A stretch of DNA of 64,000 bases, from positions 2,318,976-2,382,975 of the forward strand of contig CP051242.1 of NCBI GenBank assembly GCA_017795005.1, in the 5' to 3' direction. Below, in pieces: positions 34,018 to 41,528 of the stretch. The position numbers and the translations under genes were made by a program. This DNA comes from Balneolaceae bacterium. GTDB lineage: Bacteria; Bacteroidota; Rhodothermia; Balneolales; Balneolaceae. Numbering within the stretch: position 1 is the stretch's first letter; every line of letters starts with the position of its first letter. The notes beneath the pieces were generated by a model that saw only the letters and a program-made list of their open reading frames with translations, was not told where the DNA came from and searched no databases.

Positions 34018-34102
34018 ATACCAAATTTCAAATTCCAAATGACAAGTCTTAGCCGATAACTTAGAGCTTATGATTTGAAGTTTGTTTGGTATTTGGAATT
34101 TG
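34018..34102. repeat. Imperfect inverted-repeat element between lysS and the LolC/E gene
   Basis: CAAATTCCAAAT (34029-34040) and ATTTGGAATTTG (34091-34102) are exact inverted repeats of 12 bases. ATACCAAA (34018-34025) and TTTGGTAT (34085-34092) are a further 8-base pair. The whole fits an 85-base mobile-like palindromic element, without coding capacity. Confidence 0.55.
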
Positions 34103-34121
34103 TTTTTTGGAATTTAATCAT

Positions 34122-35348
34122 ATGAAATTCGAATCCTATTTAGCTCTCAGATATTTTAAAGGAACGCGTAAAGGTGCGCGATTTCTTTCCTTTATTAAGG
34201 CTATGAGCATAACCGGTGTAGCAATTGGTTCTGCAGGGCTTTTGATTGCACTCTCTATTGTTCATGGGTTTAAATCTACCATTAATGATAAGGTATTAGG
34301 ATTTGCTCCTCATTATTTGATCACCAATTATACCAATGCTCCACTTTATCGAGCTGATACGTTAATGACCTATCTCGATCGCTTCGATGAAATTGAAGTG
34401 AAGCAGGTTATCAATCAGGGGCAGGTAATGATTCAAACAAAAAACGGAGTAACCGGAACCGAACTTAGAGGAGTTGATAAGAATGTAAATATCTCGAATC
34501 TAACAGATTATGTTTCTGAAGGGGAATATAATCTTTCGGAAAATTCATCGGGATATCCGGGTATTGTTTTGGGTTCTAGGCTCGCTCAAACCATTCGGGC
34601 TGAATTAGGAAGCATTGTTACGGTTTACACAATTTCTGGGACTCCCAGTTTATCGAATTCCCCGGAAATTCAGCAGTTTGAATTAACAGGCATATTCAGA
34701 ACAGGAATTGATTTTTTTGATGGAATTTATGCTGTTACCTCAAAACAGTATACAGATAAACTATTTGGTATTGATCCTCTGCAGGGACAAGGAATCGAAA
34801 TTAAGCTTAAGGATGCAGATCAGATATCTTCCTTTGACAGAAAACTCGAGGATGCCCTTCCCTTCCCTTACAACAAGCAATCTATCCAACAACGTTACGG
34901 TAACATTTTTGCCTGGGTAGAGCTTCAGGAGCAAATGATACCGCTGGTTATAAGTGTAATGATTATTGTGGCGGCTTTTAATCTGATTGGAACCATTTTG
35001 ATGATGGTTCTTGAACGCACCAAAGACATCGGAATACTTAAAACGATTGGAAGCAGATCTTCTATAATCAGAAAAGTATTTCTCCTGGAAGGTTTAATGG
35101 TAGCCGGAATTGGACTTACCATTGGCATAGCTATCTCTTTACTGTTTGCCTGGCTTCAAATCAATTACCAGATAATCCCACTTTCTGAAGAGAATTATTA
35201 TATGAGCTATGCTCCGGTAGAACCTCAATTTCTGGATTTTGTAATTACATCCGTTATTACCATAATACTTTGTGCACTTGCATCCTGGCTCCCGGCCAGG
35301 ATTGCTGCTAAAACAGATCCTTTGAAAGTAATTTCGTTCGGACGGTAA
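34122..35348 (+). CDS. ABC permease of the LolC/LolE/FtsX family
   Basis: A 408-aa inner-membrane protein: an N-terminal amphipathic FESYLALRYFKGTRKG segment, first membrane helix (about 28-48, ITGVAIGSAGLLIALSIVHG), a periplasmic MacB-type domain, and three C-terminal helices including the FtsX motif TKDIGILKTIGS and ILCALASWLPARIAAKTDPL. It probably extracts outer-membrane lipoproteins with a LolD ATPase encoded elsewhere. I chose the ATG at 34122, because an upstream TTG lies in the repeat element. Confidence 0.88.
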   Translation: MKFESYLALRYFKGTRKGARFLSFIKAMSITGVAIGSAGLLIALSIVHGFKSTINDKVLGFAPHYLITNYTNAPLYRADTLMTYLDRFDEIEVKQVINQGQVMIQTKNGVTGTELRGVDKNVNISNLTDYVSEGEYNLSENSSGYPGIVLGSRLAQTIRAELGSIVTVYTISGTPSLSNSPEIQQFELTGIFRTGIDFFDGIYAVTSKQYTDKLFGIDPLQGQGIEIKLKDADQISSFDRKLEDALPFPYNKQSIQQRYGNIFAWVELQEQMIPLVISVMIIVAAFNLIGTILMMVLERTKDIGILKTIGSRSSIIRKVFLLEGLMVAGIGLTIGIAISLLFAWLQINYQIIPLSEENYYMSYAPVEPQFLDFVITSVITIILCALASWLPARIAAKTDPLKVISFGR

Positions 35349-35355
35349 TTTTTTT

Positions 35356-35997
35356 CTAATCCTTTCCCGGATCGATTAACTTCCTTGCAATTCCTTTGGA
35401 AACAGCCTCAGAACGACTATGGACCTCCAGTTTCTGATAGATATTACGGATATGATGCCGAACCCCATCCACAGAAAGAAATATTGATTTCCCAATAGCT
35501 GCATATGATTTACCGGTCGCCAGTTCTTTGAGAATCTCAAGTTCGCGTTCACTTAGCTTTTCTTCTTCTTTGATCTCAGGAGCATGGAGCGTTTTTAGAA
35601 TTTTGCGTGCAATATTTGGTGTAATTGGGGAGCCTCCTGAAAAAGCATCTTTTACGGCTGCTACCATTTCATCGGGAGTAACTTTTTTCATCAGGTATCC
35701 AACTGCACCTGCTTTTATGGCATTGAAAATGTTTTCATCGTCATCGAAAACAGTAGCCATAATTACATGCATTGTCGGGAATGAATTTCGCACATGTTGT
35801 ACGCCTTCAATTCCCGACATCCCCGGCAAGCCAATATCCATAATCACTACTTCTGCTTTCTTAAATTCTGAAGAAGTAAATGCTTCTTCACAGCTTCCAA
35901 AACTTCCGATTACGCATAAACCGGGATCATAATCAATAAAGGTTTCCCAGCCTTCTCTCATGTACTTGTTGTCTTCAATAATAACTACTTTAATCAA
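35356..35997 (-). CDS. NarL/FixJ-family response regulator
   Basis: A 213-aa regulator: receiver domain with the acceptor Asp54 in VIMDIGLPGM, then a LuxR-type HTH (KLSERELEILKELATGKSYA, IGKSIFLSVDGVRHHIRNIYQKL). The TTG at 35997 is the likely start. It gives the family length, LIKVVIIEDN is the usual receiver opening, and GGAG stands seven bases upstream. In-frame starts at 36060 and 36132 would add extensions without resemblance to the family. It follows its partner kinase, and a 7-2-7 palindrome lies between them. DNA-binding output is inferred to include that palindrome. Confidence 0.85.
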   Translation of the reverse strand: MIKVVIIEDNKYMREGWETFIDYDPGLCVIGSFGSCEEAFTSSEFKKAEVVIMDIGLPGMSGIEGVQHVRNSFPTMHVIMATVFDDDENIFNAIKAGAVGYLMKKVTPDEMVAAVKDAFSGGSPITPNIARKILKTLHAPEIKEEEKLSERELEILKELATGKSYAAIGKSIFLSVDGVRHHIRNIYQKLEVHSRSEAVSKGIARKLIDPGKD

Positions 35998-36165
35998 TGA
36001 ATTACTCCGTATTACTTCTTTGTTTAGGATAGCATAACCGTCTGTATGAGTATATAGCATAATTGTTGGATTAAATAATCCAGTCCCGATCAAAGGACAG
36101 AACAGGATCTCTATGTTTTGTGTGAAGGACACGATAGAGTTTACCTGCTTTTACAAATAATTACG

Positions 36166-36181
36166 CTACATACCTATGTGG
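36166..36181. promoter_or_regulatory. 7-2-7 palindrome, copy A
   Basis: CTACATA-CC-TATGTGG, one mismatch from the shared CCACATA-NN-TATGTGG. It lies directly after the kinase stop codon and upstream of the response regulator. On the minus strand it is preceded by CTTTGTAAA, similar to CTTTAAAAA before copy B. It is a candidate binding site of the NarL-family regulator. Confidence 0.55.
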
Positions 36182-36182
36182 T

Positions 36183-39044
36183 TTACAAAGGTAATTCCAT
36201 TCTCCAACGGGTTCCGAAATCTTCCTCTGAATGAATCTTGATGATCGCTCCGATCTTGGCTGCTCTTTTCCTGATGTTTTGGACTCCATTTCCTTCCTGA
36301 ATTTCATCCAGATCAAATCCTATTCCATTATCCTGCACAATTAACTTCAGTAAACCATTTTCAACATCCATGATCACATCCAGCCGTGTTGCTTTGGAAT
36401 GCCGAACTGCGTTTGTAATCATTTCCTTGAAAATCATCCACAGGTGTTGACGGACTTCCATGCTAAGTTTTCCGGGAATTTGTTCCGTGATATTCAGAGT
36501 ATATTCCAATTCTTTACTTTCCAGAAGGTCTGAAGCAAAACGACGACATTTGGATAAGAACAACTCCCAACTATCATTTTCAGGGTTGATGGACCAAACT
36601 ATATCCGTAATTTTCTCTTTGGCATCACCTGCACTTTCAGTAATCAGAGAAATAAAATGTGCTGATTTAGATTCATCTTTATCCCGTTTGATAGCTTCTG
36701 CAAAATAACTGATCCCTGTAAGTGTGGCACTCACTTCATCGTGAAGATCGCTGGCTATTTTGGTCCGCATTCGCTCCACTTTTAACAGCTGATTTACCCG
36801 AATCTTGTATCCCGTATACAGTAATCCAGAAAAACTTATGAAGTACAACATATACGCCCACCAGGTTCGGTACCAGGGAGGAAGTACGGTGAACGCGACT
36901 TGATCCGGTTTTCCATCTACTTCATAAACATTCCGGCTTCTGACTTTAAATATATATTCCCCTTCCGGGATGTTGGTATAATCTTTCTGGGTTTCCAGCG
37001 ACCATTCACTCCAATCGCTGTCAAAACCCTCCAGTTTGTAGGAATAGGTATTTCTGGTCTCATCTATATAACTGGCAGCCGCATAATTAAACCGCACTTC
37101 ATTGTCTTCATAAGGAAGAACAATGGGCTTCACTGGTTCGCCAAATCCGCCATAGATTAGAGAATCCCGTTTAACGTAAATGTCTGTGATGTTGGTTTTG
37201 AAATCGGTTTGGTAGTTCCAGTCTGTTTTTCTGAGTCTATGTAAGCCATTATCTCCCCCAAAAAATAATTCAGTAGAGAGAGAAAAGAGATCAAATATAT
37301 TTTCTTTGTTCAATAGTGGAGCAAACCTTTCGAAAGCAGTTTTCCAAACATTTTTTTCTCTATAAACAAGTTTCAGTTTTTTATCATTAATGAACCAAAT
37401 AGAATCATTATTAACTTTATGAAATCGAAAAACTTGTTTTTCAGAAATCGTGAAATTTCCAAAACTCAAATCTTTGATAAATTTATTACTATCCTTTTCA
37501 AATTTGAAGAGCCCGTTACTTGTTCCGATTCTAAGTGTATTATCTATTATATTAGCATCCCATATCTTAAATCCCTCAAGGCCCGATATTTGTTCTTTAT
37601 AAATCACAGAATCTTCAGCTACTTTGATTCTAAAAACATCATTTTCTCTAGTTAAACCCCATGCAAACTTATCATCATACAAAACTTTTATTACTGAATT
37701 ATTGGATGAAAGGATGCGCTTTGAATACTCATTTTTTTTTAGGTCATAAATATAAATACCTTCGTCTTTGGCAAAAAACACCTTTTCGTTTTCATAAAAA
37801 AAGAAATCATTTACTATTTCATCTGATATGAGTTCAATCTTGTTTTCATCAATAACATAGATACCTTCCAAAGATGAGCCAAGGACATGTGATTGATTCG
37901 ATAGAACCTTTCTGAAATTGCCATTGATAACCTTATTAAAAGTAGTCAACCCCCTTTCCGATTTTTTAGAAGAAAACAAACCTCTATCTGTTCCAATAAA
38001 AAATGAATTCCCTTTAGAGTTGATTGAGTTAATATTTCCTTCTAGTAGATGCTGAGCATTGTATGATTCAAAAGGTACATTAATCAATATTTTGCTTACA
38101 CCATCGCCTGTTGCAAGCCAAAGAACACCTTCTTGATCAATATTTAATCCAAGAATTGTGTTATCAGAAATTGGAGTGTTATCCTGTTCATTCTTTTCTT
38201 TAAGGATAAAATTTAGTTCTCCTTTTTTTGTAAAACTTACAATACCAGATCCAAGAGTTCCCAAAACAAAATTAGAGGAGTCAATCCAGGAACCTCTATA
38301 AACCTCTACATTATCTAAAAATTCACCTGCTTCCGTTTCCAAAGAACTTACTTTCTCATCTTTATAAACATATAACCCACTATTCAAAGATCCGATAATC
38401 CAATCATTTTTATCTCTTAATACTACTTGTGGATATTTCATATTCAGAGAATCTAATCCATTTAATTTTTTAAAACTGCTTCCTTCTAGTTCAAAAAATT
38501 CTCCGTTATTTTTTTTTACTAAAATGCTATCACCTAGTTGAAAAGATGCATATGGTTCAAAAGAAGGATTTAAAAATTCAGTTTTAATATTATTCCAAAC
38601 TATAAATCCATCTCTGGTCTGAAAAAATATTTTATTCTTCGACTCAAAAATATTCCAGATATCACCAATTAATGAATCAGCGATATTAAATTCATCCTTA
38701 AGACTTTTTGGTGCAATTGCATTCGATGAATCATACTTAATTATACCAAAATCATTTTCTCCACCATAGTATAAACTACCTTCTGATGAGATGAATAGTG
38801 ATAAAACATACGTTGAATTTGGAACATGTCTCCAATCCCATTTTACTCCATCGAACCAAACTAGACCTTGACCATTACCTATAAATATGAAACCGTTCGA
38901 GTCTTGAACAACTGAATAATTTTGCTTAAAAAGCTCGAATTCCTTTAGGTCGTAGCTTTTGTTAATAGGAAACCCCTGTCCGGTAACACAAACAGGGGTT
39001 AGTACTATTAAAATAAACGTAATTTTTATTCGATGATAATTCAA
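36183..39044 (-). CDS. Propeller-type sensor histidine kinase (reg_prop/Y_Y_Y/HisKA_3)
   Basis: A 953-aa membrane kinase with a signal peptide (about 1-23), a large periplasmic two-component-regulator propeller (about 30-600, with blades such as GNGQGLVWFDGVKW), a Y_Y_Y domain (about 650-725, FDSDWSEWS), one membrane helix near 735-755, HisKA_3 with phospho-acceptor His768 in SDLHDEVSATLTG, and HATPase_c with NAVRHSKAT and DNGIGFD. There is no receiver. The start is TTG, 14 bases after the GGGG-protein stop. The propeller half is markedly AT-rich (about 28-30 percent GC in sampled blocks) and the kinase half is 35-52 percent, so the gene looks composite. Confidence 0.88.
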   Translation of the reverse strand: MNYHRIKITFILIVLTPVCVTGQGFPINKSYDLKEFELFKQNYSVVQDSNGFIFIGNGQGLVWFDGVKWDWRHVPNSTYVLSLFISSEGSLYYGGENDFGIIKYDSSNAIAPKSLKDEFNIADSLIGDIWNIFESKNKIFFQTRDGFIVWNNIKTEFLNPSFEPYASFQLGDSILVKKNNGEFFELEGSSFKKLNGLDSLNMKYPQVVLRDKNDWIIGSLNSGLYVYKDEKVSSLETEAGEFLDNVEVYRGSWIDSSNFVLGTLGSGIVSFTKKGELNFILKEKNEQDNTPISDNTILGLNIDQEGVLWLATGDGVSKILINVPFESYNAQHLLEGNINSINSKGNSFFIGTDRGLFSSKKSERGLTTFNKVINGNFRKVLSNQSHVLGSSLEGIYVIDENKIELISDEIVNDFFFYENEKVFFAKDEGIYIYDLKKNEYSKRILSSNNSVIKVLYDDKFAWGLTRENDVFRIKVAEDSVIYKEQISGLEGFKIWDANIIDNTLRIGTSNGLFKFEKDSNKFIKDLSFGNFTISEKQVFRFHKVNNDSIWFINDKKLKLVYREKNVWKTAFERFAPLLNKENIFDLFSLSTELFFGGDNGLHRLRKTDWNYQTDFKTNITDIYVKRDSLIYGGFGEPVKPIVLPYEDNEVRFNYAAASYIDETRNTYSYKLEGFDSDWSEWSLETQKDYTNIPEGEYIFKVRSRNVYEVDGKPDQVAFTVLPPWYRTWWAYMLYFISFSGLLYTGYKIRVNQLLKVERMRTKIASDLHDEVSATLTGISYFAEAIKRDKDESKSAHFISLITESAGDAKEKITDIVWSINPENDSWELFLSKCRRFASDLLESKELEYTLNITEQIPGKLSMEVRQHLWMIFKEMITNAVRHSKATRLDVIMDVENGLLKLIVQDNGIGFDLDEIQEGNGVQNIRKRAAKIGAIIKIHSEEDFGTRWRMELPL

Positions 39045-39058
39045 TTATTTAAGATGGT

Positions 39059-39487
39059 TCATCCGCCACCGCCCACTGGTGGGTGCTTGATATTAATGTT
39101 AATATGAGTATCAGATTGAGGATGAGGGCAATTATTTTGTTTTATGAGAATTAGAGTATATTTCTTTGAAGTTATTATCCCAGGATAAGGTGTTCCTGGA
39201 ATTTCTTCCATCTCAATTAAGTCTACAATAAAACTTTTTTGGATATAGTCTTTGCAACCAGTAGCATATTCAATCTCAAAATAATACTTTGCTTCGTTTT
39301 TATGGTCAATATCTTGAGTAGATAAAAAAGACAAATGAATTTCAGGTGCATCATAATCTTCAATTTCAACTCCACCTGCTCCTTTAATTATTTTTTTCCT
39401 TACTGTACCCCCAACACCACAAAAGGCATTTAAAATAATTTCTTTGGTATTATTTGTAGTTGTTTTATTTGTAATTGAAATAGACAT
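39059..39487 (-). CDS. Uncharacterised 142-aa protein with GGGG C-terminus
   Basis: I do not recognise a family. There is no signal peptide or membrane segment. The N-terminus is Ser/Thr/Asn-rich (SISITNKTTTNNTKE), and a GGTVRKKIIKGAGGVEIEDY stretch and beta-type segments follow. It has three Cys (23, 78, 120), and the tail is NIKHPPVGGGG. It lies 10 bases after the subtilase and 14 before the kinase, so the three genes form one transcript. A flexible poly-Gly terminus may be a protease recognition or conjugation tail. It could be a peptide precursor, an inhibitor/chaperone of the protease or a modifier; none is proven. Confidence 0.65.
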   Translation of the reverse strand: MSISITNKTTTNNTKEIILNAFCGVGGTVRKKIIKGAGGVEIEDYDAPEIHLSFLSTQDIDHKNEAKYYFEIEYATGCKDYIQKSFIVDLIEMEEIPGTPYPGIITSKKYTLILIKQNNCPHPQSDTHININIKHPPVGGGG

Positions 39488-39497
39488 TTTTTTTTAT

Positions 39498-40871
39498 TTA
39501 AAGGTTATTTAGTACTGAAATATTTTGATCTGTAGGCGCTTGTATGAAGCCAAATCCAGTATCAAAAAAATTGTTTCCATCTTGAATTGTTTTTTTTGAA
39601 GTCTCTTTCAGAACCTTTCTTAGGTTTTGAATATTAAACTCTACGTTCTTCGACTCAAAAGCATTAATCCACAATGCAATTACTCCAGAAACATGTGGAG
39701 CAGCTGCACTTGTATCCCAGAATTCTTTATAGGATCCATTGTCAGATACTGTACATGTATAGTCTCCTGGAGCTACAAAATCTATCCCTCTGTTTTGTTT
39801 ACTGTCCAAGATTAATAATCCTTCATACTTAGTAACTGCCCCTACGCTTAATACGTTATTTGCAATTTCTGGGAATCTTACATATCCAAGGTGAGCATCT
39901 CTCGAATACTCTCCAAAAAAAGAGCGTGAACTTCCATTACCAGCAGAAGAAACAAACACAGTGGGCTTTGAGTATTGGACAAGGTTGATTAAAAATTCAA
40001 TTGTTCTGACTGTCTCTTGAAAAATCCAGAATATCTTGTTAATAACATCTACTTTAAATTGATCTTGTTTATTTTTGAGTTCCTCTAATAATAAAGGAGC
40101 AACACTTTTACCAAACGACATTGAAATTATATCTGCACCCTCCCTACACGACCATAAAATTGCTTCATACAAATCGATTATATCAAAGTATTTGAAACTT
40201 GGTATTACTCGGGAAACAATTAACTTCTCAATATTCCTAGCTAAGCCGATTCTCATTAATTTTGAGTATTTTCTAAAGTATACATCTCTAGAGCAAATTA
40301 TTGATGCGCACTGAGTCCCATGCATTCCCCCAACTAATTTACTCCTGTCACCTAATTTTTCTACAAAATTTTTGAATGCTATCTTTTTCTCATTATCCAC
40401 TACATCGTTTAAGTAGGAAAGTCCACTATTCGATATATTAATCCCATCATCTATTATCGCAATTTTTACACCACTTCCACAGAAATCTGATTTATTAGCC
40501 CCTATTTCCGAGATCCCCCAAGAAGCCCCATTTGAAAAGTTTGAACAATCTTCACTCCGTTTTTCAAAGGTTTGAAGACCTTTTAGCTTAATTTTTTGAT
40601 CATTAAAAAAAGGAGAAATCCATATTACATCTTCTCGCCTTGACTTTTTTAGTAACATTTTATCATCAAGGTATTCCTTAGATACTTGGAGGAGACTTAT
40701 ATCAAAATCATTTGTAGGTATAATAGAACCTGTAGTTGAATCTCTTTTTAATGGATTCCCTAAGTAATAGAATAGTATGTAGAAATCAGACTTTGGAATA
40801 GATATATGATTATTTTTTATTCTGTAATAAAAATTATCTTTTAGTATCCGATTCTTAGACTTGAATATCAC
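39498..40871 (-). CDS. Subtilisin-like serine protease (S8) without signal peptide
   Basis: A 457-aa subtilase with a complete triad: Asp141 (IAIIDDG), His184 (GGMHGTQCA), Ser388 (WDTSAAAPHVSG) and oxyanion Asn312 (SSAGNG). Residues 1-130 may be a prodomain. No hydrophobic N-terminal segment is seen, so it is probably cytoplasmic or released in another way. The start is GTG. Cytosolic S8 proteases mature peptides in cyanobactin and some lanthipeptide systems, which is a precedent for a role in processing the neighbouring 80-aa protein. It is first in the protease-GGGG-kinase-regulator gene set. AT-rich codon use matches the island. Confidence 0.88.
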   Translation of the reverse strand: MIFKSKNRILKDNFYYRIKNNHISIPKSDFYILFYYLGNPLKRDSTTGSIIPTNDFDISLLQVSKEYLDDKMLLKKSRREDVIWISPFFNDQKIKLKGLQTFEKRSEDCSNFSNGASWGISEIGANKSDFCGSGVKIAIIDDGINISNSGLSYLNDVVDNEKKIAFKNFVEKLGDRSKLVGGMHGTQCASIICSRDVYFRKYSKLMRIGLARNIEKLIVSRVIPSFKYFDIIDLYEAILWSCREGADIISMSFGKSVAPLLLEELKNKQDQFKVDVINKIFWIFQETVRTIEFLINLVQYSKPTVFVSSAGNGSSRSFFGEYSRDAHLGYVRFPEIANNVLSVGAVTKYEGLLILDSKQNRGIDFVAPGDYTCTVSDNGSYKEFWDTSAAAPHVSGVIALWINAFESKNVEFNIQNLRKVLKETSKKTIQDGNNFFDTGFGFIQAPTDQNISVLNNL

Positions 40872-40959
40872 AAATATTGGCTTTTATGCAATTACGTTAA
40901 AGCCCGGCAGACGTCCCCGTACATCCCTAATGTCTTTTAGCCTTTTCGAATTAAAATTA

Positions 40960-40977: not shown

Positions 40978-41080
40978 ATCTAATATTCATAGTAATGTTT
41001 TAGTAACATGCTGTAATATCAGGTTTAACTTTAAGGTGTTTAATTTGAATACAGGATAGCTACTACAAATAAAGCTCTCA

Positions 41081-41096
41081 CCACATATATATGTGG
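41081..41096. promoter_or_regulatory. 7-2-7 palindrome, copy B
   Basis: CCACATATATATGTGG, a perfect 16-base palindrome in the gap upstream of the subtilase operon (210 bases before its GTG). The flank TATGTGGTGAGAG on the minus strand resembles TATGTGGTGATAG at copy C. It is followed on the plus strand by five T, so a role as hairpin in a plus-strand RNA is also possible. Confidence 0.6.
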
Positions 41097-41120
41097 TTTT
41101 TAAAGACTGGATGTGTTTCA

Positions 41121-41149
41121 ATAAAAAAGCCACCTGATTGGGTGGCTTT
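41121..41149 (-). terminator. Terminator of the 80-aa peptide gene
   Basis: GCCACC / GGTGGC stem extended by AAA/TTT with a six-base loop and, on the minus strand, a run of T. It is near-identical to the ald terminator at 41501-41528. It can probably act in both directions. Confidence 0.8.
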
Positions 41150-41175: not shown

Positions 41176-41418
41176 TTAACATATCTTTTTTATTAGCTTT
41201 ATTGCCCACTTAAGAAGCTTACATATACGCTTCCATTTTCCGGTAGCATTTTTGCAAATTTCTTCTACTAAAGGTTCTAATATAGAAAGAACTACTTCAC
41301 AAACATTCCCTTTCTCGGCAAGAGTTGAAACTCCTTTAGCTGACCTAGCTGACTCATATGTGTTAACCTTTGCTTCCAGGTCATCCAATAATTTTGAAGA
41401 AATTAAATTTTCATCCAT
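41176..41418 (-). CDS. 80-aa peptide precursor-like protein, cationic four-Cys tail
   Basis: Of no known family to me. Residues 1-39 are mixed-charge and helical (MDENLISSKLLDDLEAKVNT and on). Residues 40-80 hold four cysteines at 40, 55, 66 and 80, and after residue 55 there are nine Lys/Arg and no acidic residue (CKLLKWAIKLIKKIC at the end), an amphipathic, membrane-active type of sequence. The split suggests a leader plus core, as in ribosomally made antimicrobial or signalling peptides, with a possible saposin-like disulfide pairing. There is no GG leader-cleavage site or signal peptide. Palindrome C stands 65 bases upstream. A terminator follows, so it is a single-gene transcript. Confidence 0.7.
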   Translation of the reverse strand: MDENLISSKLLDDLEAKVNTYESARSAKGVSTLAEKGNVCEVVLSILEPLVEEICKNATGKWKRICKLLKWAIKLIKKIC

Positions 41419-41482
41419 AACTTTGCGTTTTGTTAATATTAAAATGTTGACCTCAATTAACTTTGCTTCAGAGTAACTATCA

Positions 41483-41498
41483 CCACATAACTATGTGG
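41483..41498. promoter_or_regulatory. 7-2-7 palindrome, copy C
   Basis: CCACATA-AC-TATGTGG, with perfect heptamer arms, upstream of the 80-aa peptide gene and just after the ald terminator. Its position 65-80 bases before the ATG suits an activator site. Confidence 0.6.
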
Positions 41499-41500
41499 AA

Positions 41501-41528
41501 ATAAAAAGCCACCCGATCGGGTGGCTTT
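41501..41528 (-). terminator. Terminator of ald
   Basis: GCCACCCGATCGGGTGGC is an 18-base perfect palindrome (41508-41525) followed on the minus strand by a T-run. It separates ald from the island. Confidence 0.85.

Follow-up and report, generated by a model that had tools for sequence, protein, structure and literature searches.

What does an 80-residue protein with no relative in the collections searched do, and to which system does its gene belong? For orphan small proteins, the lack of context usually makes tests of function impossible. In the present case, an operator in common with the adjacent kinase/response-regulator system supplies a concrete inducer, a co-expressed gene set and a clean duplication history. 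The gene considered here lies in a Balneolaceae genome; the window is the whole 64,000-nucleotide stretch of DNA that was analysed.

41176..41418, minus strand: orphan reading frame of 80 codons with ATG start; Cys at 40, 55, 66 and 80; predicted helices 8-27, 39-56 and 61-79

The 80-residue reading frame and its composition

The encoded protein has the sequence MDENLISSKLLDDLEAKVNTYESARSAKGVSTLAEKGNVCEVVLSILEPLVEEICKNATGKWKRICKLLKWAIKLIKKIC. The first-pass annotation placed a small acidic-leader, cationic-core protein at 41176-41418; these coordinates are right, and the correct strand is the minus strand (41418..41176); many stops interrupt the matching frame on the plus strand. The composition described there is borne out by the translation. 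All four Cys are present, residues 1-55 have a net charge of -6, and nine Lys/Arg with zero Asp/Glu are found past residue 55. On inspection, no GG leader, signal peptide or transmembrane segment can be seen, and the N-terminal half is long and acidic.

Given the Cys frequency of the window, at least 4 Cys in 80 residues has a probability of 5e-4; the count is weak evidence alone, since 14% of nucleotide-shuffled reading frames also have at least 4. The charge split and amphipathicity exceed chance expectation. Among neighbouring proteins, none of 14,979 windows of 25 residues has at least nine Lys/Arg and no Asp/Glu, and none of 8,814 windows of 18 residues matches the hydrophobic moment of 0.77. 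In these post hoc tests, 0.035% of residue shuffles of the protein attained the moment and 0.02% the charged tail. Each was attained in about 0.4% of nucleotide-shuffled reading frames, so AT-rich composition alone does not account for them. When the 379-bp segment is shuffled, 1% of the shuffles contain an ATG reading frame of at least 80 codons; the codon-usage score was equalled or beaten by 87 of 2000 shuffles, which amounts to modest evidence of coding.

No match above cut-off was obtained for the protein among the Pfam, NCBIfam, PHROGs and PADLOC profiles, and no relative was found among PDB sequences, plasmids, phages, viral contigs and genome contigs. The same was true of 98 relatives, 245 genomes of the class and 394 of the phylum, and the gene is absent from both available congeners (L023 and L024). 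Weak matches (E 0.02-1) were attributed to chance, several of them containing internal stops; the coding sequence around one of them, L028, is GC-rich and so unlike that of the query. Three small cationic Cys-containing reading frames near kinases of other genera passed the filter, and all look like chance. The searches thus returned neither close homologues of a known cytosolic family, which the first-pass annotation had named as evidence against a peptide, nor homologues of any kind. The reading frame is real and, in these comparisons, species-restricted, present in one Balneolaceae species only.

Arrangement of the locus and a duplicated block

Read along the minus strand, the locus starts with alanine dehydrogenase, followed by a terminator, a dyad, the 80-residue gene, a second terminator and dyad, the conserved leader, the S8 subtilase, the 142-residue protein, the histidine kinase, a further dyad and the NarL-type response regulator. 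The intergenic elements around the 80-residue gene are as follows.

41505..41528, minus strand: intrinsic terminator of ald, in the first copy of the duplicated block
41482..41499, minus strand: putative operator dyad TCCACATAGTTATGTGGT of the 80-residue gene
41455..41460, minus strand: candidate -10 box TTAATT of the 80-residue gene, 21 nt past the dyad and imperfect against TAnnnT
41126..41149, minus strand: intrinsic terminator behind the 80-residue gene, in the second copy of the block
41080..41097, minus strand: putative operator dyad ACCACATATATATGTGGT of the operon for protease, small protein and kinase, with TATCCT 21 nt downstream
40905..40941, minus strand: conserved leader element GCTAAAAGACATTAGGGATGTACGGGGACGTCTGCCG, single copy, common to the two congeners

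The terminator-plus-dyad block is present in two copies, 85-86% identical, that bound a segment of about 0.4 kb with the 80-residue gene; the second terminator lies 26 nt past the stop codon. In the two congeners, one terminator and one dyad lie between alanine dehydrogenase and the leader. The block, found once in each congener, is therefore shown to be duplicated here, with the 80-residue gene between its copies. The leader element, upstream of the operon, is identical or nearly so in the congeners despite different downstream genes, and is a possible RNA regulatory element. An Rfam search of the locus, leader included, returned nothing at gathering score; sub-threshold Phe_leader matches were traced to the terminator hairpin only.

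Putative operator and promoter

The dyads belong to a consensus element of Balneolaceae that consists of ACYACATN4ATGTRGT and, exactly 21 nt further downstream, TAnnnT. Counting dyads with at most 1 mismatch gave 45 intergenic dyads (90 strand readings) at about 24 loci; of these 45, 31 have TAnnnT at precisely 21 nt, and the next best offset reached 5. Loci carrying the operator-promoter were recorded in the window (36165-36182, 41080-41097 and 41482-41499) and at L059-L078, L121 and L191-L199. The dyad of the 80-residue gene has one mismatch to the consensus and lies 63 nt upstream of the ATG. Because its -10 box misses TAnnnT, this promoter may be weak or decaying.

36165..36182, minus strand: putative operator dyad ACCACATAGGTATGTAGC before the response-regulator gene, with TAAACT 21 nt downstream

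The dyad recurs at the corresponding kinase/response-regulator loci in other genera. Elsewhere, operator-promoters precede response-regulator genes, operons beside the kinase for proteins with a C-terminal HP, AtuA-family genes and a few small-protein genes; the position before response-regulator genes reads as autoregulation. The host genome was searched by pattern with at most 2 mismatches, and of the sites examined only four fell outside reading frames, three of them at this locus and the fourth before a 452-residue secreted orphan. A dispersed repeat was considered and rejected, as exact copies of the dyad CCACATANNTATGTGG were located at just two positions of the genome. By its distribution the consensus dyad appears to serve the adjacent two-component system as operator, and its conserved linkage suggests that the NarL-type response regulator binds it. 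Likely, then, the 80-residue gene belongs to the regulon of this system.

Other genes of the proposed regulon

39498..40871, minus strand: S8 subtilase, first gene of the operon; D/H/S triad motifs by inspection, no obvious signal peptide
39059..39487, minus strand: 142-residue small protein with C-terminal tail DTHININIKHP, common to kinase-linked proteins of other genera
36183..39044, minus strand: sensor histidine kinase with Reg_prop (weak), Y_Y_Y, HisKA_3 and HATPase_c
35356..36132, minus strand: NarL/LuxR-type response regulator with Response_reg and GerE, candidate regulator of the 80-residue gene

The nearest named relatives of the kinase are from Rhodohalobacter, Fodinibius and Balneola, which places the genome in Balneolaceae. 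The small proteins whose genes lie immediately upstream of the kinase evolve fast (window 39059-39487; L060, L062, L063, L066, L072, L073 and L121). In common they have a short tail at the C-terminus, in forms such as DTHINxNIxHP, DVDPxVxHP or GH(V/I)CDPxxxxC, and some have signal peptides while others do not. Structure prediction for the 142-residue protein from 17 diverse alignment rows gave a pLDDT of 46 and was unusable.

The first-gene protease belongs to the S8 subtilases both in this genome and in genome G042 of another genus (L063:4541-5770), is trypsin-like in congener G001 (L023:3278-4150), where it accompanies a 196-residue protein, and is absent in congener G002, whose cargo is a 130-residue protein alone. 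From these gene contents, protease cargo reads as interchangeable between Balneolaceae loci. In the G042 operon the S8 protein is 30% identical, the tail DTHI(N/D)(I/V)NI(K/V)HP is shared, and the dyad stands directly before the protease with no gene of the 80-residue type upstream. Because this operon does without such a gene, the 80-residue protein is not required by the protease and is not its obligate partner; an obligate protease-propeptide pair was accordingly rejected as the default.

The 452-residue secreted orphan (L098; G000:C1:1662362-1663717) stands behind the same operator, with TAAAGT at 21 nt, and has no relative in 58 related genomes. In other genera, AtuA-family (PF07287) genes lie behind the operator-promoter beside the response regulator (L191, L192, L193, L194 and L196). 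Two small secreted proteins of 89 and 107 residues behind this promoter (L198, dyad 6590; L199, dyad 6096) share a C-terminal SKVLP motif and are possible signalling peptides. In L060 and L062, short reading frames with a common TSSIFAQSRR occupy the leader of the small-protein operon, where a leader peptide or a conserved RNA is possible. In G051, a 123-residue Cys-containing orphan without a Pfam match (L081:1029-1400, minus strand) follows a near-perfect dyad by about 100 nt. Literature searches on this operon type gave nothing directly relevant.

Predicted structure and proposed role

The AlphaFold2 model, made from the single sequence without an alignment, has moderate confidence (pTM 0.47) and contains three helices, 8-27, 39-56 and 61-79, in place of the four-helix fold suggested at first. 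The N-terminal part is uncertain, and the C-terminal helical hairpin (39-79) has a pLDDT of 86-89. In this hairpin an acidic helix (residues 40-55, net -4) is paired with a cationic one (residues 65-80, net +5, hydrophobic moment 0.74). A Foldseek search of the model against the PDB gave a best E of 6.4 and nothing relevant. The earlier idea of a membrane-active peptide survives in part: the C-terminal helix is indeed cationic and amphipathic, to a degree that is statistically unusual, and a membrane-active or strong surface-binding role is plausible, while the bacteriocin or saposin part is not upheld. The helix probably binds membranes or a partner.

Our leading reading, to which a probability of about 0.4 is given, is that the two-component system next door controls the gene as a species-restricted output, and that the product is a three-helix protein of the cytosol with a cationic helix acting at the inner membrane. 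When the kinase is active, the response regulator would bind the dyad at the -35 position, and a short mRNA ending at the downstream terminator copy would be made. Its translation product would be a cytosolic 80-residue three-helix protein, in whose C-terminal hairpin (39-79) an acidic helix is paired with a strongly cationic amphipathic one. In solution the former would keep the latter masked; on contact with the anionic inner membrane, or with an acidic partner, the cationic helix would be freed and would insert peripherally. As neither an export signal nor a transporter is seen, action would be intracellular, at the membrane, with the subtilase and the small HP-tailed protein as co-outputs. 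In the reducing cytosol the four Cys would probably be free or metal-binding, unless the protein is released.

A broader and doubtful extension is a Balneolaceae "cargo" regulon, in which an autoregulated kinase/response-regulator pair and its operator-promoter would be fixed, the outputs (subtilase or trypsin-like protease, HP-tailed protein, small peptides) would be replaced from species to species, and the 80-residue protein would be a lineage-specific effector acting on membranes, brought in when the operator block was duplicated. No description of such a Balneolaceae regulon was found. If the regulon assignment of the gene holds, the locus would be a worked example of a new small gene entering an existing regulatory circuit, and would outline for Balneolaceae a two-component regulon in which proteases and small proteins are exchangeable cargo. 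The surrounding regulon is of more interest than the 80-residue protein by itself.

Alternative explanations

Four other explanations were weighed, ranked here from a partner-binding modulator through an unselected proto-gene and a secreted bacteriocin to a subtilase-activated self-toxin. The hairpin might never contact a membrane, and might instead bind and tune a regulon partner, be it the subtilase, the HP-tailed protein or the kinase/response regulator. The operator common to the gene and these candidate partners, the lack of an export signal, and acidic and basic faces that could form a binding surface are consistent with such a soluble modulator. There is also precedent, as small regulon proteins that inhibit their own kinase are known (PMC8404706), for example MgrB acting on PhoQ. 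However, orthologous systems in other genera work without the protein, and cationic helices with a moment of 0.74-0.77 more typically bind membranes; we regard this explanation as unlikely, though less so than the other three. Somewhat less probable is a proto-gene, an open frame that arose when terminator and operator were duplicated locally and that is now transcribed without any function under selection. The absence of relatives in any database or genome set searched, the duplicated block on both sides, the modest codon bias, a length reached in 1% of shuffles and the imperfect -10 box all agree with this, but moment and charge split are attained by at most about 0.4% of shuffled reading frames.

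A secreted antimicrobial peptide, exported without a signal peptide and perhaps released by the co-regulated subtilase, is improbable. It would account for a cationic amphipathic helix with Trp and Cys and for a protease within the same regulon, whereas saposin-like bacteriocins lack Cys (PMC6072434) and no family or fold match was obtained. Nor does the window's reading-frame list hold a transporter, immunity or processing gene specific to this locus; neighbouring genes are conserved in congeners, including the sole nearby ABC-type permease gene (34086-35348). Still more remote is altruistic death by a toxin acting inside the cell, which would depolarise the membrane of its own producer once the subtilase had freed the cationic tail from the acidic half, in a manner gasdermin-like in logic only. 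One regulon does contain a protease and a membrane-prone cationic tail, and, as conflict systems do, it has cargo that varies and is specific to lineages; yet the S8 operon of G042 has no such gene, and the PADLOC profiles gave no defence-family match.

Comparison with known systems

Secretion or immunity functions are encoded in the gene clusters of leaderless and circular bacteriocins (PMC6131525). Lacticin Q, aureocin A53 and the circular AS-48 resemble the 80-residue protein as cationic, Trp-containing amphipathic helices (PMC6072434, PMC6131525). They have no leader or signal and are active as translated; by inspection the 80-residue protein shows neither a GG leader nor a signal peptide, but its N-terminal half is long and acidic. 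In contrast to them, it has four Cys where they have none, this acidic half, no accompanying transport or immunity genes, and a Balneolaceae rather than a Gram-positive host. NK-lysin and other SAPLIPs are likewise helical, with helices bracketed by Cys, but mostly have three disulfides (six Cys; PMC6072434), against four Cys and three predicted helices here. The saposin-like assignment fails on this count and for want of a Foldseek match. As two defining features of bacteriocins were tested and neither was found, the protein is not classed as one; literature on Balneolaceae bacteriocins yielded nothing directly relevant.

MgrB is similar in being a small, regulon-made protein beside its kinase, but it is an inner-membrane protein, whereas no transmembrane segment is seen here by inspection. 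Phenol-soluble modulins are Cys-free peptides of 20-45 residues with a dedicated exporter and direct response-regulator control. The 80-residue protein is longer and contains Cys, and no sequence relation to them was found. It resembles them in its signal-less amphipathic helical character and in its presumed control by a response regulator, and may work like an amphipathic membrane-binding peptide.
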